Source of the DNA: an uncultured Flavobacteriaceae bacterium | GTDB lineage: Bacteria; Bacteroidota; Bacteroidia; Flavobacteriales; Flavobacteriaceae | Direction: 5' to 3' | DNA: 64,000 bases | Assembly (NCBI GenBank): GCA_938092005.1 | Contig: CALKOU010000001.1 | Span: 186,001 to 250,000 of the forward strand | In this document: positions 1,044 to 34,834 of the stretch, one piece after another | Position numbering within the stretch: the stretch's first letter is position 1 | Layout of the letters: every line of letters begins with the position of its first letter | Translations under genes and position numbers: made by a program | Notes under the pieces: model-generated | Databases searched by the model: none | Told to the model about the DNA's origin: nothing | The model's input: only the letters and a program-made list of their open reading frames with translations

Positions 1044-3088
1044 GCGTTACTTACTTTATTTTGGTAATATTCATATGTGGCCTCTTGTGAGCGCAACGGA
1101 AGTGCTCCATTTGTACGATACGTAGGCTTTGACGGATCATTGACCCACCGTGCTTTTATGTTATCATTCCAGCTTAGCTCAAAAGTATCTACGAGCTCTT
1201 GTTGAATATCTTTATCATAAATAGGACACGAAACTTCAACACGGTTATCGAGGTTACGTGTCATCCAATCAGAAGATGATATCAAAATATCTCGGTCGCC
1301 TCCATTTTCAAAAATTACCATACGAGGATGCTCTAAAAAACGATCGACTACGCTGATCACTTCAATATTTTCGCTAACTCCTTTGACACCAGGAATCAAA
1401 CAACAAATTCCTCTAACAATCATACGTATTTGCACACCTGCTTGACTGGCTTTATAGAGTGCTGCAACCATATCATAGTTTGTCAAGTTATTAATCTTTA
1501 TGCGTATTAATGCGTTTTTCCCAGCTCTTGCTAAAGTCATTTCTCGAGCAATACGCTCTTTGAGTCCACTAGAAGTTGAAAAAGGAGAAATGAGCAAGTG
1601 CTTATGATCAGGAACCTTATAGCTTTTTTCTAAAAAGGTAAACACACGATTTACTTCTTTTAGAATTTGTTGATTGGCGGTAAACAGTGTATAATCCGTG
1701 TAAATCCTAGCAGTAGACTCATTAAAATTACCCGTGCTAATAAACCCATACCGCTTGAGCTTATCCTCTTCTTGACGTTGAATCAAACATATTTTTGAGT
1801 GTACCTTTAAGCTGGGAATTCCAAAAATAAGACGCACCCCTTCGTTTTTAAGCAACTCGGCATACCGAATATTTGCTGTCTCATCAAATCGTGCTTGAAG
1901 TTCAATCTGCACCGTTACTTGTTTGCCATTTCGTGCAGCCTGAATTAGGGCGTTCGCTACTTGGGAGTCGTTCGACAAGCGATAGATGGTAATAAATATA
2001 CTTTTGACCTTTGGATCAAGTGATGCCTCGCGTAAGAAGCGAATAACGTATGCAAAATTATGATAAGGGGTAAACTGAAGAAAATCACGCTGCCGTATTT
2101 GATCAATGATTCCTTTTTTTAATGAAAAACCTGCAATGGAAAGGGGTTCTTTTTTGGAGTAGCATAAATCGGGGCGGCCTAAACTAGGGAACTTCATATA
2201 GTCTCTCCGGTTGTGATAACGTCCTCCCGGGATAATACTATCTCGAGAGCCAATTTGAAATTTATCAAGCAATCGTTCTAGTGTGTCTTCGCTTATATTT
2301 TTGTCGTAAACAAAACGTACTGGGTCGCCTTCTACCCTATCACGAACACTAGATGCAATTTTCTCAATGTAACTTTTGTTGATGTCTTCATCAAAGTCCA
2401 ACTCAGCATCACGAGTAAACTTAACCATGTGTGCTGTAATTGATGTTGGTGAAAAGATTTGAAAAATGTATTGCATTTGATGACGAATGAGGTCATCCAA
2501 CAGCATCACATATTGCTTGTCGCCACGTGGCGGTAAAACAACAATTCGATCCAGATGCGTGGGCATTTGAATAAGCGCATAAAGAGGCTTTCCTGTTTGC
2601 TGCTCCATACGAACAGCTAAAAAAGCATTGTTACCCCTGCTATTTGGCAGTAGGGTATCATCATCTTGCATCAAAATCGTAAGTAGTGAAGGACTTACCA
2701 TTTGATCAAAAAAGTCATGCACAAAAGCAGCATGCTCATCGTCAAGTGCATGTTCATCAAGTATAAAGATGTTTTCCTCACGTAATTCCGCTGTAAGCTC
2801 CTGGATAGTCGTAAAACTTTCACCTTGCAACGCAATTGTCTTTTGTGTAATTTCTTGAAGTAAGGCTTCTGCTTTATTGGCTTCATCTGAATTTGATGCA
2901 GCTTCCATTTGTGCTATACGCTTCACAGTGGCATAGCGTACTTTATAGAACTCGTCAAGATTATTGGAGAAAATCCCGATAAAACGAACCCGTTCAATCA
3001 AGGGGACTCGCACATCTTGCGCTTCCTGCAATACACGTCGATTAAAATCTAACCAACTTAATTCACGATTTATAAATGGTAATGCCAC
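1040..3088 (-). CDS. ppk1: Polyphosphate kinase 1
   Basis: Reversibly polymerises the ATP gamma-phosphate into inorganic polyphosphate. The N-terminal signature INRELSWLDFNRRVLQEA is present. The two catalytic histidines are recognisable: one in KVHSKICLI (His430 from the GTG start), which would be autophosphorylated, and one in EHPRMVIFENGGDRD (His587). An upstream ATG at 3148 would add 20 residues and overlap sixA by 58 bp. I prefer the GTG at 3086-3088, two bases after the sixA stop, because it puts INREL five residues from the N-terminus, as in the family. It is translationally coupled to sixA upstream and ppx downstream. Confidence 0.9.
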   Translation of the reverse strand: MALPFINRELSWLDFNRRVLQEAQDVRVPLIERVRFIGIFSNNLDEFYKVRYATVKRIAQMEAASNSDEANKAEALLQEITQKTIALQGESFTTIQELTAELREENIFILDEHALDDEHAAFVHDFFDQMVSPSLLTILMQDDDTLLPNSRGNNAFLAVRMEQQTGKPLYALIQMPTHLDRIVVLPPRGDKQYVMLLDDLIRHQMQYIFQIFSPTSITAHMVKFTRDAELDFDEDINKSYIEKIASSVRDRVEGDPVRFVYDKNISEDTLERLLDKFQIGSRDSIIPGGRYHNRRDYMKFPSLGRPDLCYSKKEPLSIAGFSLKKGIIDQIRQRDFLQFTPYHNFAYVIRFLREASLDPKVKSIFITIYRLSNDSQVANALIQAARNGKQVTVQIELQARFDETANIRYAELLKNEGVRLIFGIPSLKVHSKICLIQRQEEDKLKRYGFISTGNFNESTARIYTDYTLFTANQQILKEVNRVFTFLEKSYKVPDHKHLLISPFSTSSGLKERIAREMTLARAGKNALIRIKINNLTNYDMVAALYKASQAGVQIRMIVRGICCLIPGVKGVSENIEVISVVDRFLEHPRMVIFENGGDRDILISSSDWMTRNLDNRVEVSCPIYDKDIQQELVDTFELSWNDNIKARWVNDPSKPTYRTNGALPLRSQEATYEYYQNKVSNA

Positions 3089-3090
3089 GC

Positions 3091-3573
3091 TTATGTTACT
3101 GTTTTTGGAAAAAAAGTTTCCGCTTCTCCTTTTGTTATGTCTGACCACAAAGATACATCAAAGCGAAAAAGCACAGCTCCAGCAGTGGGAATGTTGTTGT
3201 TATCTAATGCTCCTAGCATGTGCGCGAGTGCAGTACATGCGTTATTGTGTCCAAAAGTGATAACAGTATCCAAACGATCATCAAGACAATGAATAAATTC
3301 TAGCACATCATCACCAGAAAAGTCATATAATGAATTGCTAAAAGAAAGCTTGTGTAGTGGAACATTCATTTCTTGGCAAACAATAAGAGCGGTATGTGTC
3401 GCTCGAACTGCTGGACTTGAATAAACAGCATCAATAGCAAAATCCTTTTTACCCAAAAAAATGCCCATTTTATGCGCATCATCAATACCGCGTTGATTAA
3501 GAGGTCTGTCTTTGTCAGCAACTCCTAATCCCCAAGATGATTTGCCGTGGCGCATCATAAGCCATGTTTTCAT
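3091..3573 (-). CDS. sixA: SixA-type histidine phosphatase
   Basis: A 160-residue member of the histidine phosphatase (phosphoglycerate mutase-like) superfamily. The catalytic RHG lies at residues 8-10 (MMRHGKSSWG), and a second histidine in TFGHNNACTALAHML fits the family's distal catalytic His. E. coli SixA dephosphorylates phosphohistidine on signalling and PTS proteins; the substrate here is unknown. The frame stays open to 3630, but the ATG at 3573 gives the normal N-terminus and leaves 29 bp after pdxH. Its place directly before ppk1, an enzyme with a phosphohistidine intermediate, is suggestive but proves nothing. Confidence 0.8.
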   Translation of the reverse strand: MKTWLMMRHGKSSWGLGVADKDRPLNQRGIDDAHKMGIFLGKKDFAIDAVYSSPAVRATHTALIVCQEMNVPLHKLSFSNSLYDFSGDDVLEFIHCLDDRLDTVITFGHNNACTALAHMLGALDNNNIPTAGAVLFRFDVSLWSDITKGEAETFFPKTVT

Positions 3574-3602
3574 GCGTTGCTTTTTAAAAGAGTTAAATAT
3601 TA

Positions 3603-4247
3603 CTAGGGTGCCTTGCGCACAACACGCCAAAGGCTATCAAGTTTGGTGTAAACAATGCGGTCGTGTAACCTGTTAGGTCTTCCTTGCCAAAATTCGATTT
3701 CTATTGGCGCTACAACAATACCACCCCAGTGGGTTGGTCGAGGAATTTCTTTCCCTTCAAATTGCTTTTTCAACACGTCTTGCCGTGCTTCCAACACGTC
3801 ACGTGAGGCTATGGGCTCGCTTTGTGGTGAGATGTGCGCTCCTAATTGGCTTCCTACGGGGCGAGAGGCAAAATAGACATCTGAAACTTCTGGTGCCACT
3901 TTAGACGCAACACCTGAAACGATCACTTGTCGTTCCAGACTAGGCCAAAAAAATGACAAACTTACTTTAGGGTGTGCAAATAATGCTTTGCATTTATCGC
4001 TGTTGTAATTGGTATAAAACACAAAGCCTTCCGTTGCTAATTCTTTTAACAGCACGACCCGTCCCTTAATGGCTCCTGTGGTATCAACAGTACTCAATGT
4101 CATGGCATTAACTTCAGCTACTCCGTCAGATTTCGACACCTCATCAAACCATTGATTGAATAACGTGAGCGGCGACTCGGGGATTTGGGATTCGTCTAAG
4201 GAGTTGGTGTCGTAGCTTTTGCGTAGGTGTCTAAAATCTCTTTCCAT
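3603..4247 (-). CDS. pdxH: Pyridoxamine 5'-phosphate oxidase
   Basis: FMN-dependent oxidase making pyridoxal 5'-phosphate from pyridoxamine or pyridoxine phosphate. The 214 residues match the family's usual length. Characteristic segments are the N-terminal LRKSYD...PLTLFNQWFDE, the FMN-binding KGRVVLLKE...GFVFYTNYNSDKC, LSFFWPSLERQV, the SRPVGSQLGAHISPQSE block, and the C-terminal WGGIVVAPIEIEFWQGRPNRLHDR. It sits in the pyrR-to-ppx operon, 21 bp after rnz. Several PLP enzymes are encoded nearby, though no direct link is implied. Confidence 0.93.
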   Translation of the reverse strand: MERDFRHLRKSYDTNSLDESQIPESPLTLFNQWFDEVSKSDGVAEVNAMTLSTVDTTGAIKGRVVLLKELATEGFVFYTNYNSDKCKALFAHPKVSLSFFWPSLERQVIVSGVASKVAPEVSDVYFASRPVGSQLGAHISPQSEPIASRDVLEARQDVLKKQFEGKEIPRPTHWGGIVVAPIEIEFWQGRPNRLHDRIVYTKLDSLWRVVRKAP

Positions 4248-4268
4248 ACCCTAAATGTACGAAAAGCG

Positions 4269-5171
4269 TTATGAAATTACAGCTCCATCTGCAGCTAAAA
4301 TAACATTGGGAAAAATAGCAGCTGCTTCCATGACAAAAGGCTGCAAGTCTTTGTAACGCGAAGAAAAATGTCCTAAAATCAGTCGATCTATTTCAGCCTC
4401 TTTAGCAATGGAAGCTGCTTGGGCTGCAGTACTGTGTTTTGTTTTGGCAGCAATGGACTCGTGCTGTGCCAAAAAAGTAGCCTCATGATAAAGCCAATCT
4501 GCTTTGTGGATTATAGGAACAATAGCTGGATGGTATGCGGTATCACTGCAATAGGCATATTTTTGAGGTGCATCTGGAGCTAAAGTAACGGTGGCGTTGT
4601 CTATTAAAATACCGTTTTCGTTCTTCACATTTTGACCAAGTTGCAGTAATCGAAACTGGCTTTTATCAATGTCGTTTGCTTGAGCTGCTTTAAGATTAAT
4701 ACGGCGCAAACCTTCTTTTTCTTCAAACAAAAAACCATTGGTATAAACACGATGCAGTAGTGGTATCGTCGTTACTTTTACTGAATCGTCCTCATAGATA
4801 CATTCCGACACATCAGACTCAAGCTCATGAAAATGAAGAGGGTAACTAGGTGCTGATTTACCCAATTTCAACAATAAAAGCAACGCATCTTTAATCCCCT
4901 TTGGTCCGTAAATATGAAGCGGAGCCTCCCTGCCTAAAAGACGAAAAGAAGAAACCAAACCTGGCAATCCAAAAAAATGATCTCCATGGAGGTGTGAAAT
5001 AAAAATATGCTTTAGGTGTGTAAACGAAACTTTCGCTTTTCGTAATTGAACTTGGGTTCCCTCGCCGCAATCGATTAGGAAACGATGTCCTTTTATGTCC
5101 AATACCTGGGCGGTAGGGTTTTTATTCTCGTGTGGTGTAGCAGAGTGACAGCCTAAAATTGTGAGCTTCAT
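4269..5171 (-). CDS. rnz: Ribonuclease Z
   Basis: Zinc-dependent endonuclease of the metallo-beta-lactamase superfamily that trims tRNA 3' trailers. The N-terminus MKLTILGCHSATP, the metal motif SHLHGDHFFGLPG, and the later histidines and aspartate in YCSDTAYHPAI, HEATFL and LILGHFSSRYKD are all present in family order. The length of 300 residues fits the short bacterial RNase Z. The start codon overlaps the stop of the STAS-like gene upstream by a base, so the two are almost certainly co-translated. Confidence 0.92.
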   Translation of the reverse strand: MKLTILGCHSATPHENKNPTAQVLDIKGHRFLIDCGEGTQVQLRKAKVSFTHLKHIFISHLHGDHFFGLPGLVSSFRLLGREAPLHIYGPKGIKDALLLLLKLGKSAPSYPLHFHELESDVSECIYEDDSVKVTTIPLLHRVYTNGFLFEEKEGLRRINLKAAQANDIDKSQFRLLQLGQNVKNENGILIDNATVTLAPDAPQKYAYCSDTAYHPAIVPIIHKADWLYHEATFLAQHESIAAKTKHSTAAQAASIAKEAEIDRLILGHFSSRYKDLQPFVMEAAAIFPNVILAADGAVIS

Positions 5172-29895: not shown

Positions 29896-29923
29896 GCTGC
29901 GGTTATTTGTATTCTGTTTGGCG

Positions 29924-29979
29924 GAGTAATAGCGCTGCCCAACAGAAGAGTTATATTTGTTTTTCCTCTCGTATTACTC
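29924..29979 (-). promoter_or_regulatory. Structured 5' leader of rpsA (candidate autoregulatory element)
   Basis: On the minus strand the transcript leader contains GAGTAATA pairing perfectly with TATTACTC across 40 nt. A nested GAGAG/CTCTT pairing (one G-U) encloses an A-rich loop, and a one-sided bulge CTGTTGGGCAGCGC remains. It sits 28-84 nt upstream of the rpsA ATG. Ribosomal protein leaders often mediate feedback; that role is inferred here. Confidence 0.45.
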
Positions 29980-30002
29980 TAAGGCGCTTCTCAAGAGGAC
30001 GG

Positions 30003-30034
30003 CAAATTTACTGTTTTATATGTTTATAGACAAA
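30003..30034 (-). promoter_or_regulatory. Two-box promoter of rpsA
   Basis: Minus strand: TTTG (30031-30034), a 20-nt spacer, then TAAATTTG (30003-30010). This is an exact match to the Bacteroidota -33/-7 consensus and the best promoter in the window. It implies a leader of about 100 nt. Confidence 0.75.
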
Positions 30035-30073
30035 ACTTACCTATTTTAGGTGCTATTATTGCGATAACCAACT

Positions 30074-31066
30074 ATGAAAAGATATATAGCGTTACTACTA
30101 TTTGTTGCACTGCTCTCTGTTAAACCCACCCTTTCAGCACAATTTGACCGGTACCAATGGGATACGATAAGCACTAAAAATCTTCCCTCTGGAAGGCACG
30201 AAAATGGATTTGTAGCATATAAGGGTAAATTCTACCTCATTGGCGGACGTGGAATCCATCCTGTTAATGTATATGATCCCAACACAAACGCATGGGAAAC
30301 CAAAAAGAAAACCCCATTTGAAATGCATCATTTTCAAGCGGTTGTGCATGACAGTATCATCTACATTGTGGGAGGCATGACGGGACGTTACCCAAAGGAA
30401 AAACCATTAACGCATATTTGGTGCTATTATCCCGAAAACGATCTTTGGAAAAAAGGAGCTGAAATTCCGAAAGAACGACGCAGGGGAAGCGCAGGAGCAA
30501 CAGTATACAATGACAAAATTTTTTTGGTAGGAGGAATTAAACTTGGGCATACTAGTGGAACCACAAATTTATTTGACTGCTATGATCTCAAAACAAAAAC
30601 ATGGAAGACATTAACAGATGCGCCACACATCCGAGATCATTTTTCAGCGGTGGTAGCAAAGAACAAACTCTATTGTGTTGGGGGCAGAAACACTAGTGTT
30701 CATAATCCAACTAAGTTTAGTGCTTTTTTTGGAGCTACTGTTCCTCAAGTGGATTACTATGATTTTGAAAAACAAACGTGGTATACCATGGAACATGATT
30801 TAGCTATTCCTTCAGCAGCAGGCGCAATTGTTTTGCTACATGAGCAGTTGGTGTATTTTGGAGGGGAAAGCAATCAAAAATTAGCACATAATCAAACGCA
30901 ATCACTCGATCTATTAACGGGCAGATGGGCCGTACATCACAATATGATTACAGGTAGGCATGGCACAAATGCCGTAGTTCATAATGGGGCTATTTATACA
31001 GCTGCAGGCAGCGGAACTAGAGGAGGCGGGAAATTGACTTCCTTAGAAATATTCTCCATACGCTGA
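30074..31066 (+). CDS. Secreted Kelch-repeat beta-propeller protein
   Basis: A 330-residue exported protein with a signal peptide (residues 1-22, ending LSAQ). Kelch blades are recognised by di-glycine turns: FYLIGGRG, IYIVGGMT, IFLVGGIK, LYCVGGRN, LVYFGGES and a degenerate IYTAAGSG, with a Trp a few residues before each next blade. That predicts a six-bladed propeller. No galactose oxidase radical-copper residues are evident, so a binding or scaffold role is likelier than catalysis. It precedes the redox lipoprotein block but may have its own promoter. Confidence 0.82.
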   Translation: MKRYIALLLFVALLSVKPTLSAQFDRYQWDTISTKNLPSGRHENGFVAYKGKFYLIGGRGIHPVNVYDPNTNAWETKKKTPFEMHHFQAVVHDSIIYIVGGMTGRYPKEKPLTHIWCYYPENDLWKKGAEIPKERRRGSAGATVYNDKIFLVGGIKLGHTSGTTNLFDCYDLKTKTWKTLTDAPHIRDHFSAVVAKNKLYCVGGRNTSVHNPTKFSAFFGATVPQVDYYDFEKQTWYTMEHDLAIPSAAGAIVLLHEQLVYFGGESNQKLAHNQTQSLDLLTGRWAVHHNMITGRHGTNAVVHNGAIYTAAGSGTRGGGKLTSLEIFSIR

Positions 31067-31142
31067 TTGTTGTTTTTTTAGCAAACAACAAACGTCCTTG
31101 GCATATTTATTGTAACAATATTAAGAATGAAAAACCCAGATC

Positions 31143-32147
31143 ATGAAAAATACAAATTCCTTTTATGCACTAAAAACGCATCTTAAACCATTCGTATATC
31201 TCTTTTTCGTTTTATTAACTTTTGCGTGTTCGAAAGACGATGTAGACGATAAAAAGACCATGACCCCTCCCAACAACACAACATCAGAAGACAAAGCACC
31301 TTTGTTTTCGTTAGCATCATTAGACAACGGAACCATTAACCTTGCCGATTATGAAAATAAGGTTGTGGTGTTGTACTTTTTTGGCAGTAACTGCCCATTC
31401 TGTATTGCTGCTGGTCCTGATATAGAAAAAACATTAAAAACACCTTTTGCAGCAAACGATGATTATGCCATTATTGGTCTTGATCAATGGGATGGAAATA
31501 ATGCTGCTGTAAATGCGTTTAAATCACAAACGGGAATCACATTTCCTTTACTGTTAAATGCTTCTAGTGTAGCAACAACGTATCAAACTACATACGACAG
31601 GCTTATAGTGCTCAACAAAGAAAGGGAAGTAGTGTTTAAGGGTACTCAACTTGCTGGCAACGACTTAGCCGCTGCTGAAGCAAAAGTATTAGAGCTTGTA
31701 ACACCTAAATCCGACAACAATCAAGGAAGTAGCAAATATAGCTTTACACTCAAGTCATTAGACGGAAACGATGTTAGCTTATCTGACTATGACAACAAAG
31801 TAGTCTCACTATTCTTTTTTGGTAATGGTTGCCCAACATGCAAATCTGCAGCATCAACAATACAAAGAGAATTGGTTAATTCATTTTCATCAAATGATGA
31901 TTATGTTCTTTTAGGTTTAGATGTTTGGAATGGAAATTCGGCTTCGGTACAAGCCTTTAAAACCTCCACAGGAGTATCTTATCCCTTATTATTAAAAGCT
32001 TCAAGCGTAGCATCGGATTTCGAAACGTCTTACGATCGCATCGTTGTGCTAGACAAGAACAAAGAAATTGCGTTTAAAGGCAGTCGAAATGCCAATGGAG
32101 ATATTGCGACTGCAAAAGCAAAAATCAGTACGCTTTTGTCAAACTAA
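31143..32147 (+). CDS. Lipoprotein with two tandem thioredoxin-like (redoxin) domains
   Basis: A lipoprotein signal ends at Cys29 in LLTFACSKDD. Two homologous redoxin/TlpA-like domains follow. Domain 1 (about 52-187) has YFFGSNCPFC (Cys84, Cys87) and domain 2 (about 197-334) has FFFGNGCPTC (Cys230, Cys233). Each repeat also shows NAF/QAFK-T-G-(I/V)-(T/S)-(F/Y)PLLL, SSVA and YDRIVVL blocks, so the halves arose by duplication. It is probably a periplasm-facing thiol-disulfide protein. It is followed within 41 bp by a TlpA-type gene, with DUF6029 after that. The two-domain form is uncommon. Confidence 0.8.
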   Translation: MKNTNSFYALKTHLKPFVYLFFVLLTFACSKDDVDDKKTMTPPNNTTSEDKAPLFSLASLDNGTINLADYENKVVVLYFFGSNCPFCIAAGPDIEKTLKTPFAANDDYAIIGLDQWDGNNAAVNAFKSQTGITFPLLLNASSVATTYQTTYDRLIVLNKEREVVFKGTQLAGNDLAAAEAKVLELVTPKSDNNQGSSKYSFTLKSLDGNDVSLSDYDNKVVSLFFFGNGCPTCKSAASTIQRELVNSFSSNDDYVLLGLDVWNGNSASVQAFKTSTGVSYPLLLKASSVASDFETSYDRIVVLDKNKEIAFKGSRNANGDIATAKAKISTLLSN

Positions 32148-32187
32148 ATGCGCAAATTGCGTATGCTATCAAACCCAAAACCTTATC

Positions 32188-32673
32188 ATGAAAACATATG
32201 TTATTTTATTCTGTTTAGTGTTACTCCCTTCTTATGGATTAGCACAAATCGTAGACAATTTTGAACTCAAAGATCTGCAGAATAACCTACAAGAGTTTGA
32301 AGAACTCAAAGGAGAGAACCTTACCCTTATTGACTTTTGGGCTTCGTGGTGCAAACCGTGTAAAAAGGCCATCCCGTACTTAAACGACATCTATGCTAAT
32401 TACAAAGAAAAAGGCGTGGAAATAATTGGGATTAACTGTGACGGACCAAGAAGCATTTCAAAAGTTGTTCCGCTGAGCAAATCGTTGCGAATTCAATATC
32501 CTGTGCTTTTGGATATTGACGCAGCAGTAAAAAATGATCTGAACATTATGCTTTTCCCTACGCTTATCATGGTAGACGCATCAGGCAATATCGTGTGGAC
32601 CCACGAAGGTTTTGTTTCTGGTGATGATGAACACATTAAAAAAGCAATTGACCAGCAACTTAATGTACTTTAA
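32188..32673 (+). CDS. TlpA family thiol:disulfide oxidoreductase
   Basis: A 161-residue exported protein with a cleavable signal (1-19, SYGLAQ) and one thioredoxin-like domain. The active site is WASWCKPCKK with Cys55 and Cys58, followed by EIIGINCDG and the cis-Pro segment LFPTLIMVD. It probably reduces periplasmic disulfides, for example in cytochrome maturation or envelope repair. The frame extends upstream inside the preceding gene, but ATG 32188 is the natural start. It lies 2 bp before the DUF6029 gene. Confidence 0.87.
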   Translation: MKTYVILFCLVLLPSYGLAQIVDNFELKDLQNNLQEFEELKGENLTLIDFWASWCKPCKKAIPYLNDIYANYKEKGVEIIGINCDGPRSISKVVPLSKSLRIQYPVLLDIDAAVKNDLNIMLFPTLIMVDASGNIVWTHEGFVSGDDEHIKKAIDQQLNVL

Positions 32674-32675
32674 TA

Positions 32676-34139
32676 ATGCATAAAAACATATGGGTATGGG
32701 TGTTTTGTGCGCTCTGGTTTTCTGCTGACGGTCTTGCTCAGTTTAGCGGAAATAATCTGTCAGAATATCAATATGGAGGATTACCAACTGATGCCAGTTC
32801 TTTTTCGGCATTTTACAATCGTTTGGTCACCAACTATAAACACAAAAGCTTTAAAGCCAGTGGAAGCTTGGAAGTATTTCAATCACCAAGAAATGGAAGC
32901 AGCTATGTAAACCTATCGCAACTCTCGTTGCGGTATAAGCAAAAAACTTTTGATATTCGTGTGGGGAATTTCTACGAAACCATTGGTCGGGGGACTTTAT
33001 TGCGTTCGTTTGAAATTCCAGGAGCTGTTCTTGAGGATTTAAGTTATCGCTCTCGGCATTATTTTAATCGAGATATACAGGGTGCAATTGCCAAATTTCG
33101 GTTTCAAAACTTCGAAACTAAGCTTATTTATGGTAAACCCTTAAACTATGTTTTTCCACCAACGCAGCACAGGAATCAACGAAGAGCAGACGAAATTTCG
33201 GTAATCTACTCGGCATTCCACAAAAAACAACAAACACTTGGCTTTGCGTTTATGAACCATAAAAATGCATCCAAAAGCACCCAATATTTTATGACCACCC
33301 TATCGGGAAGTATTAGCCCTTCGTTGACATATTATACAGAAGTAAGTAAAAACATCAGCGATTTTGATGTTTCTGACTTCTCAAACAGGGCTTCTTTTGC
33401 CGCTTATGCAGGCTTGAGTTATACGTATAAATCCTTGGGGCTTAGCGTCGAGTATAAAAACTATAAAAACTTTTTAATTGGTTCTGGAATCAATGAACCG
33501 CCAGCACTTGTAAAGGAACATTCCTACAGCGTCCTAAATCGAAGCACACACGTACTACAACCCGCCAATGAAAATGGCTATCAACTCGAAGCGTTTTATA
33601 GTTTTCCTGATTTTTCAACCATAACCCTTAACTATACCAAAGCAATCAATGACTTTAACACCAAAACTGTTTTCGAAGAGTATTTTGTTGAGTACGATTT
33701 TACTTTCGCATCAAAGCACGATGTAAAGATTTTTGCGGACTATGCTAAAGACCCTTTTAAACTTGAGGACAATCGAATATCTACTGGTATCAATACGGTT
33801 TTAAAAGCCACAAAAACACATGCCTATACCATAGATTATGAATTTCAATCGTTTGAGCGTTTGGCTGAAACTTATCTAAATCATGTTATGGTTTTGGGCT
33901 ATAATCCCATACCAAAGCTTATTGGATCGGTTGTAGCCGAATGGAGCACCGATTCTTTTCTGGTTGAGGAAGGGACACGGTTTTGGGCCGGTATAAACAT
34001 GCGCTATCAAGTCAATCGAAAAAACAGCTTACAACTATTTATTGGAGAGCGGCGTGGTGGTCCTGCATGTAACGCAGGCGTTTGCTATGAGGTGTTGGAC
34101 TTTAAGGGAGTGGAGCTGCGTTTTTCAAGTCGGTTTTAG
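32676..34139 (+). CDS. DUF6029 family outer membrane beta-barrel protein
   Basis: A 487-residue protein with signal peptide (1-22, ADGLAQ) and a pattern of alternating aromatic beta-strands ending in ELRFSSRF, so the final residue is the Phe expected of an outer-membrane barrel. The VGNFYETIGRGTLLRSFEIPG segment resembles the conserved N-terminal part of DUF6029 as I recall it. A CNAGVC pair near the C-terminus could be a disulfide and a substrate for the neighbouring TlpA protein. The function of the family is not established. It is the last gene of the plus-strand redox block. Confidence 0.7.
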   Translation: MHKNIWVWVFCALWFSADGLAQFSGNNLSEYQYGGLPTDASSFSAFYNRLVTNYKHKSFKASGSLEVFQSPRNGSSYVNLSQLSLRYKQKTFDIRVGNFYETIGRGTLLRSFEIPGAVLEDLSYRSRHYFNRDIQGAIAKFRFQNFETKLIYGKPLNYVFPPTQHRNQRRADEISVIYSAFHKKQQTLGFAFMNHKNASKSTQYFMTTLSGSISPSLTYYTEVSKNISDFDVSDFSNRASFAAYAGLSYTYKSLGLSVEYKNYKNFLIGSGINEPPALVKEHSYSVLNRSTHVLQPANENGYQLEAFYSFPDFSTITLNYTKAINDFNTKTVFEEYFVEYDFTFASKHDVKIFADYAKDPFKLEDNRISTGINTVLKATKTHAYTIDYEFQSFERLAETYLNHVMVLGYNPIPKLIGSVVAEWSTDSFLVEEGTRFWAGINMRYQVNRKNSLQLFIGERRGGPACNAGVCYEVLDFKGVELRFSSRF

Positions 34140-34156
34140 AACATTATGAGAATGAA

Positions 34157-34834
34157 TTATATGCCCATTATTCGATCCCTTACCAAGGTCAATACATACT
34201 TTAGCATTCCATCAACGGTAAACTGTGTCGCATCTAACGCAATGGCATCCTCAGCTTGTATTAAAGGAGAATCTGCTCGAGTGCTATCTAGATGATCACG
34301 TTGGGTGATGTTTGTCAATACGTCCTCAAACGTAGTTGAACCATTTTGGGCGATTAGCTCATCGTAACGGCGTTGCGCTCGAATGTTGGCATCTGCGGTC
34401 AAAAACAGTTTTAAATTAGCCTTAGGAAATACAACGGTACCTATATCCCGACCGTCCATAACTACGGCTTGATTAGCACCCATAATGCGTTGTTGCGCTA
34501 CCAAAAAAGCGCGTATTTCAGAAACAGCAGCTACTTGGCTTACTACATCCGATACCTTCATGCTTCTAATTTCAGCACTTACATCGTTACCGTTTACATA
34601 CAACGCACCCTTTTTAAACGATAACTGAATATCATCTAAATGTGCAATAAGCGAAGCCTTGTCAAGCTGTTGATTTATTAACCATCCGTTTTGTTGGGCA
34701 TAAAGTGTGAGTCCACGATACATGGCACCAGAATCAACATGGACAAATCCTAAAGCTTTAGCAAGCCCTTTGGCAAGGGTACTTTTTCCAGTTGAAGAAG
34801 CGCCGTCAATGGCAATTACAAAAGGTGTTGTCAT
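34157..34834 (-). CDS. cmk: (d)CMP kinase
   Basis: Phosphorylates CMP and dCMP. The 225 residues have P-loop IDGASSTGKSTLAKGLAKAL, the MYRGLTLYA segment, MDGRDIGTVVFPKANLKLFLTA and QRDHLDSTRADSPL. The long NMP-binding insert is typical of bacterial CMP kinases. Its ATG overlaps the porQ stop by 4 bp; the cmk-porQ pairing recurs in Bacteroidota. Confidence 0.94.
   Translation of the reverse strand: MTTPFVIAIDGASSTGKSTLAKGLAKALGFVHVDSGAMYRGLTLYAQQNGWLINQQLDKASLIAHLDDIQLSFKKGALYVNGNDVSAEIRSMKVSDVVSQVAAVSEIRAFLVAQQRIMGANQAVVMDGRDIGTVVFPKANLKLFLTADANIRAQRRYDELIAQNGSTTFEDVLTNITQRDHLDSTRADSPLIQAEDAIALDATQFTVDGMLKYVLTLVRDRIMGI

Follow-up and report, generated by a model that had tools for sequence, protein, structure and literature searches.

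A 64,000-nucleotide stretch of the genome of an uncultured Flavobacteriaceae bacterium (assembly GCA_938092005.1, contig CALKOU010000001.1; hereafter the window) carries three plus-strand open reading frames (ORFs) between positions 31143 and 34139, which encode a double-redoxin lipoprotein, a TlpA-type reductase and an outer-membrane β-barrel related to DUF6029. We consider it highly likely that these genes constitute one functional thiol-disulfide unit. An earlier note had proposed an envelope thiol relay or a chaperone set dedicated to the barrel; the idea of a functional unit is upheld here by recurrent linkage, a gene fusion and an invariant cysteine pair in the barrel. As to the mechanism, we tentatively favour an outward relay across the outer membrane over maturation of the barrel by its thiol neighbours.

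The lipoprotein gene (31143-32147; 334 aa, with two redoxin domains of the AhpC/TSA type according to the ORF, Pfam, an AlphaFold2 (AF2) model and a comparison of its halves) is followed after 40 nt by the gene of a TlpA/ResA-type thiol-disulfide oxidoreductase (32188-32673; 161 aa, identified by ORF, Pfam and alignment, and counted from an ATG, the mechanical ORF opening earlier at a TTG). The barrel gene (32676-34139; 487 aa, assigned by Pfam, AF2 and fold search) starts after a further 2 nt. From these short gaps the trio is predicted to be co-transcribed.

Recurrent linkage of DUF6029 barrels with thiol proteins

Barrel loci were collected from relatives (12 regions), from a phylum-wide sample of Bacteroidota (80, the number of its 296 genomes with a DUF6029 match) and from named records (3), giving 96 together with the window. 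Three were dropped: L041 comes from the same genome as L033, L034 has no more than a piece of the barrel, where its contig ends, and in L125, with a DUF6029 match below the cut-off, a barrel ORF could not be found. Among the 93 loci left, L089 and L090 share one genome. The models for redoxin/TlpA proteins (RED), Omp28 proteins (OMP28) and barrels were partly trained on the same loci. Since the RED and OMP28 models match each other's members, and some TlpA-sized proteins carry the OMP28 label, both were counted as one thiol class.

A co-oriented thiol-class gene lay within three genes of the barrel at 89 of the 93 loci, and at least two such genes at 63; if either strand is counted, 91 loci had a thiol-class neighbour. 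On the barrel's own strand, the next gene upstream belonged to the class in 74/93 cases and the next gene downstream in 64/93, against a background of 10 in 359 ORFs situated more than four genes from a barrel. Counted by taxa, with L039 and L040 set aside, an adjacent co-oriented thiol gene was present at 87 of 91 loci, in 61 of 65 genera and in 31 of 32 families, the remaining family being the one in which TlpA and barrel are fused. Because the models had partly been trained on the 93 loci, 20 further loci were scored with frozen models. These were hand-picked from high-scoring DUF6029 matches in other genomes of the window's class and spread over families (one, L159, was chosen for an odd open frame); 17 of them had an adjacent co-oriented thiol gene, compared with 0 of 73 background ORFs. 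The barrel family itself is common in that class, where DUF6029 matched at an E value of 1e-20 or better in 275 of 395 sampled genomes. The neighbourhood survey called for in the earlier note thus found linkage with thioredoxin-fold partners to recur across the phylum, and the absence of such recurrence, by which the note would have been overturned, was not observed.

The fusion is a single 667-aa ORF (L053:5539-7542), in which a TlpA domain (PF00578, residues 21-140, with CVPC) is joined to a DUF6029 barrel (PF19494, residues 158-667, 583 bits); between the two no signal peptide can be seen. It ties TlpA to the N-terminal, periplasmic end of the barrel. It is the only TlpA-barrel fusion that was found; a second candidate, an 810-codon open frame in another genome (G493), was rejected as the frame runs over Ns.

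The barrel and its C-terminal cysteine pair

The second line of evidence is a Cx4C motif near the end of the barrel. In the window it reads C465-N-A-G-V-C470 (34068-34085), just as pointed out before this analysis, and lies, by AF2 and alignment, in a predicted extracellular loop that joins the last two long strands; C465 and C470 are the only cysteines after residue 26. The pattern was found 15-19 residues from the C-terminus in 90 of the 93 barrels. L071 is a 91st, where a frameshift next to Ns places the motif in a different reading frame, and the two without it are a barrel cut by the contig (L039) and a truncated gene (L072). All 20 barrels of the second locus set have the motif, and among 1071 other ORFs of the same stretches it occurred once, in an ORF of 79 aa. 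In the alignment of 90 barrels (L039, L071 and L072 left out) both cysteines and five glycines were 100% conserved at a median pairwise identity of 21%, and 68 of these barrels lack any further cysteine after residue 25. The two cysteines are presumed to take part in redox chemistry and not to form a structural disulfide. As regards the truncated gene (L072:5390-7146), it stops at profile position 355, and the very next ORF, which overlaps it, has a tail resembling that of the type IX secretion system (T9SS).

The barrel of the window matches PF19494 (DUF6029) over profile positions 62-538 and scores 89.1 bits, the cut-off being 27 bits. The family core scores 515-698 bits in 10 genomes. Of the 79 other genomes with a match in the phylum-wide sample, 25 exceeded 500 bits, and scores there shade down to about 19 bits in a wide low-scoring fringe, to which the window belongs. 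Judged against the core, the barrel of the window is a divergent DUF6029 relative: it falls short of the full-length match of core members, with the first 61 profile positions unmatched. When solved structures were searched with the barrel sequence, nothing matched. The AF2 model, computed from four sequences, has about 24 strands (predicted local distance difference test, pLDDT, 63; predicted TM score, pTM, 0.57); counted by hand, 12 loops on the Cx4C side average 13 residues and 11 on the other side average 3, although single neighbouring connections do not always alternate in this model. In barrels of this kind both termini are, as a general rule, periplasmic and the long loops are outside. 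From the loop lengths and this rule the Cx4C pair is predicted to face outward, and would thus lie outside the cell. Kinship with LptD or ushers, which the Foldseek results might invite, is not claimed, owing to low TM values and the low confidence of the model.

The position of the pair bears on the reading in which TlpA and the lipoprotein with its thioredoxin folds look after the Cx4C disulfide on the periplasmic side, making it, correcting it or holding it open until the barrel has been inserted; once folded, the barrel would do work that has nothing to do with thiols. The pair lies in the last hairpin, beside the C-terminal strand, with which outer-membrane proteins first engage their assembly machinery. 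TlpA is periplasmic and is fused to the barrel in L053, and the maturation reading leaves no spatial gap between TlpA and the Cx4C. LptD, the assembly of which needs disulfide rearrangement, is listed by the fold search, but as one of many large barrels (TM ~0.3-0.46). On the other hand, many partners have T9SS tails or lipoboxes, and some have surface signals, which points to action outside and after insertion; moreover, two or more dedicated thioredoxin-fold proteins would hardly be needed for one structural disulfide. Altogether we regard maturation as rather unlikely, though still a serious competitor.

Family membership also suggests that the barrel might be a polysaccharide porin, with the thiol genes as accessories, as export of polymer has been proposed for some Wzi-type barrels. 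One paper (PMC9603273) reports that HHpred finds Wzi-type barrels linked to OPX to be similar to DUF6029, and suggests from this that DUF6029 may have a part in polysaccharide secretion. However, neither an OPX nor a polysaccharide gene was recognised among the scanned neighbours in the window (the search for OPX was confined to these neighbours), and the recurrent partners are thiol proteins; we give this reading very little credence.

Thioredoxin-fold partners

The TlpA protein has the attributes by which TlpA/ResA proteins are recognised, namely a match to a thioredoxin-fold family (PF00578, 74 bits), a CxxC motif (WCKPC at 32350-32361) and a cis-proline (in FPT), and it is predicted to be a thiol-disulfide reductase. 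A signal peptide is apparent by eye. TlpA proteins linked to barrels share a C-terminal [YFH]xxG[DESTAN][EDA] signature, present in 74 of 76 and seen in 2 of 53 partner redoxins and in 2 of 18 other RED-class ORFs, of which one is the TlpA-barrel fusion itself and the other a second copy of a linked TlpA; the pattern was loosened after a first version had fitted 47/76, and is descriptive only. By regular expression, both a T9SS tail and a lipobox were absent from 69 of 73 co-oriented linked TlpAs. The genome of the window encodes one DsbD_TM protein, and a search of it for VKOR returned no match.

The lipoprotein had been described as an internal duplication of a CxxC redoxin domain, and this holds: it matches PF00578 in two stretches (92.5 bits), and its halves share 51% identity across 132 residues (E 8e-55). 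Of the shared motifs then listed, PLLL and SSVA are in both halves, while YDRIVVL is restricted to the second, the first having YDRLIVL. By alignment and AF2, domain 1 comprises residues 50-188 (31290-31706), with CPFC at 31392-31403 and, at the position of the TlpA cis-proline, YDR at 31593-31601; domain 2 comprises residues 197-333 (31731-32141), with CPTC at 31830-31841 and YDR at 32031-32039. The AF2 model (pLDDT 79.6) shows two thioredoxin folds, and Foldseek backs the fold. It should be added that the domain tree leaves the branching unsettled, and a single origin of the duplication in the window and in L039 is not claimed.

The lipobox cysteine, Cys29, is followed by S-K-D-D-V (31227-31244), in keeping with the C-X-K-(D/E)2-X export signal reported for surface lipoproteins of Capnocytophaga (PMC5080379). 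Three of six linked lipoproteins fit this signal, those of the window (CSKDDV), L039 and L040, and in L033, L106 and the remnant of a congener (G008) the fit is inexact. The lipoprotein of the window is probably on the outer face of the cell.

The lipoprotein lacks the cis-proline opposite CxxC and in this respect falls outside the classical thioredoxin-fold oxidoreductases. Across 39 barrel-linked redoxin domains (of the window lipoprotein, L033, L039, L040 and L105-L124) this place was taken by YDR in 37 and by FDR and YDN in one each, whereas all 13 aligned TlpAs have proline, so that the barrel-linked redoxins are perhaps not ordinary oxidoreductases. They form a distinct group, for which YDR/FDR/YDN may serve as a marker and which, judged by motif, does not belong to the peroxiredoxins. 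Peroxiredoxins have the peroxidatic motif PxxxT/SxxC; such an identity was ruled out for the lipoprotein on this motif, both halves reading FFGxxCPxC. In one family (f37; L105, L107-L123) a redoxin lipoprotein, a redoxin carrying a T9SS tail, or both, come after the barrel, and 27 of 31 such redoxins have a DsbA-like CPHC motif.

The double redoxin, as a barrel partner, is a fact of the window but not the usual form in the phylum, where a common partner is Omp28, a protein with a solved relative (2r2c). Only the window and L039, of 93 loci, have a two-domain redoxin beside the barrel. When 11 partner proteins were compared with Pfam, most were Omp28 (PF11551) or AhpC/TSA and several had a T9SS sorting tail. 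Among 114 non-TlpA thiol neighbours within three genes, including 14 on the opposite strand, regular expressions found a T9SS-type tail in 40, a lipobox in 51 and neither in 23; for the 6 tail-bearing partners that were compared with Pfam, the tail was confirmed in every case. Most partners thus look exported. In the genome of the window PF11551 gave no match, the control being silent too and the genome 84% complete. The copy in the window is a variant with a redoxin lipoprotein in the place of Omp28, and it is patchy in its genus. The T9SS tail domain was present in 78 of 79 DUF6029 genomes (that of the window left out) and in 150 of 217 others, a suggestive tie from counts that ignore kinship and in which one total is uncertain by one. 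Separately, one Omp28 partner (L093:7473-8501) also matches the NCBIfam entry 'Omp28-related selenoprotein' (NF045500), which a selenoprotein review gives as a UxxC hypothetical protein (PMC13188914).

A surface lipoprotein together with a barrel is a general uptake layout of Bacteroidota, into which the trio fits. The barrel might accordingly import a metal or a thiol/disulfide compound, with the surface redoxin or Omp28 and TlpA binding or reducing the ligand on either side. The lipoprotein domains keep CxxC in spite of the missing cis-proline, a state that could favour metal binding, and same-strand regulators stand upstream at three loci, namely a two-component pair at L106 and AraC-type regulators at L039 and L040. 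Against import, the model leaves too little sequence ahead of its first strands to hold a plug domain (no search was made for a TonB box), the scanned neighbours of the trio in the window included no recognised metal-handling gene, and what is invariant is the Cx4C, not a ligand-specific motif. We hold ligand uptake to be improbable.

With regard to these regulators, the response regulator and histidine kinase of L106 occupy 2640-4810 and the AraC-type genes L039:1513-2379 and L040:1657-2508, in each case upstream of a redoxin-TlpA-barrel trio; neither type precedes the trio of the window. No Msr gene was recognised among the window neighbours, to which that search was confined.

Outside the trio, cmk and porQ sit convergent to the barrel gene, and overlap each other by 4 bases on the minus strand (34831-34834). 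Upstream, a 9-bp A/T-rich inverted repeat read from the sequence (TTGTTGTTT...AAACAACAA, plus strand, 31067-31091) stands directly past the stop codon of a Kelch gene (30074-31066). It is a candidate separator between that gene and the module, and it was absent from the terminator-scan output. The Kelch gene itself was considered as a member of the unit and rejected: in the congener G001 it stands between rpsA and cmk without the trio, and other genes lie upstream of the trios of G004, L039, L040 and L106.

History of the trio and a proposed outward relay

Within the genus the barrel was found in 3 of 17 genomes, the window, G004 and, as a fragment at a contig end, G002; the whole lipoprotein, searched for in 16 of them, was confined to the window and G004. 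In G004 the gene order is the same, with a single-domain lipoprotein, at an unrelated site, and the rpsA-cmk interval is empty there. In G008 this interval holds a remnant that extends from the start of the lipoprotein to the end of the barrel: about 75 lipoprotein residues run straight into the last 16 barrel codons, consistent with one deletion. Among ten relatives with both flanks (L147, L149-L157) the interval, which in the window spans 29896-34156, is variable: nearly empty (157-220 bases) in four, occupied by an apparent lipoprotein of ~340 aa in four, two of them with extra sequence, by Kelch only in one, and by the trio remnant and two other genes in one.

That unrelated genes came to lie together by chance, or are transcribed independently, might be read from these changing neighbours, Kelch included. 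Yet the linkage in 31 of 32 families, the fusion and the gaps of 2-40 nt speak against it, as do the same gene order at the unrelated site in G004 and the extent of the remnant in G008, and we find coincidence scarcely credible.

The barrel of the window is 60% identical to that of L039 and 47% to that of its congener G004. The barrels of the window and L039 group together (support 100/98), and a tree forcing the congeners together was rejected (p-AU 0.0045), a test set after the identities were known and with G004 on a long branch. The closer relation to L039 and the rejection of the forced tree suggest that the trio may have been transferred between Bacteroidota.

In the outward relay that we favour, the periplasmic TlpA, probably recharged through the DsbD-type membrane protein of the genome, would exchange disulfides with the barrel. 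The Cx4C in the last outward loop of the barrel would in turn exchange with a thioredoxin-fold partner on the cell surface, which is the double-redoxin lipoprotein in this organism and would often be Omp28 or a redoxin secreted by the T9SS in its relatives, and that partner may then act on external disulfides or oxidants. Computed support comes from the recurrent linkage, the fusion, the conservation of Cx4C, the thioredoxin folds and the export signals of the partners; the flow of electrons would be outward.

Several observations weigh against this proposal. The main difficulty is spatial, in that the membrane would separate an outward Cx4C from the periplasmic TlpA. The loop that bears the Cx4C has a pLDDT below 50. 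The exported redoxins are without the cis-proline typical of thioredoxin-fold oxidoreductases. The truncated barrel of L072, encoded on a 4.5-Mb contig, has lost its C-terminal part and still stands beside TlpA and Omp28 genes. Conversely, Cx4C barrels occur without a thiol gene in the stretch in two of the 93 loci (L052, and L083 at a contig edge), and no adjacent thiol gene was seen in three of the 20 (L165, L172, and L170 at a contig edge). Linkage by itself indicates neither direction nor chemistry.

A literature search, outside which most subscription journals lay, retrieved no assigned function for DUF6029, Bacteroidota Omp28, the linked TlpA group or the trio, in line with the earlier note, which knew of none for the set. 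Compared with the canonical DUF6029-TlpA-Omp28 neighbourhood, the trio has the same TlpA upstream of the barrel, an adjoining thioredoxin-fold partner and a glycine-bearing Cx4C near the C-terminus; it differs in a barrel far from the family core, which has GGPACNAGVCYE where core members have CVGGVCR, and in a redoxin lipoprotein instead of Omp28. The reductase shares fold, WCxPC and cis-proline with TlpA/ResA/StoA oxidoreductases, but TlpAs of this type are linked to a barrel and have their own C-terminal signature. In the CcdA-Etrx1/Etrx2-MsrAB2 pathway of Streptococcus pneumoniae (PMC3914529), surface-exposed thioredoxin-fold lipoproteins are fed electrons from inside, and Etrx2 is among the fold matches of the window lipoprotein; that organism is Gram-positive, with no outer membrane to cross.

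Another parallel is offered by MtrCAB, an outer-membrane porin-cytochrome conduit. In conduits of this type an outer-membrane barrel joins periplasmic and surface redox proteins, although electrons are transferred by haem and a sequence relation to the trio is not claimed.

To our knowledge, it has not been described how thiol reducing power could be supplied at the outer face of any Gram-negative cell. If the proposed relay is real, the unit would supply it. It is conceivable, if doubtful, that these genes represent a phylum-wide device that moves thiol-disulfide equivalents over the Gram-negative outer membrane by means of a dedicated TlpA inside, a barrel whose invariant outward Cx4C is the point of crossing, and thioredoxin-fold proteins displayed outside through lipoprotein export or type IX routes. 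Alternatively, a whole family of barrels would need private thiol helpers.

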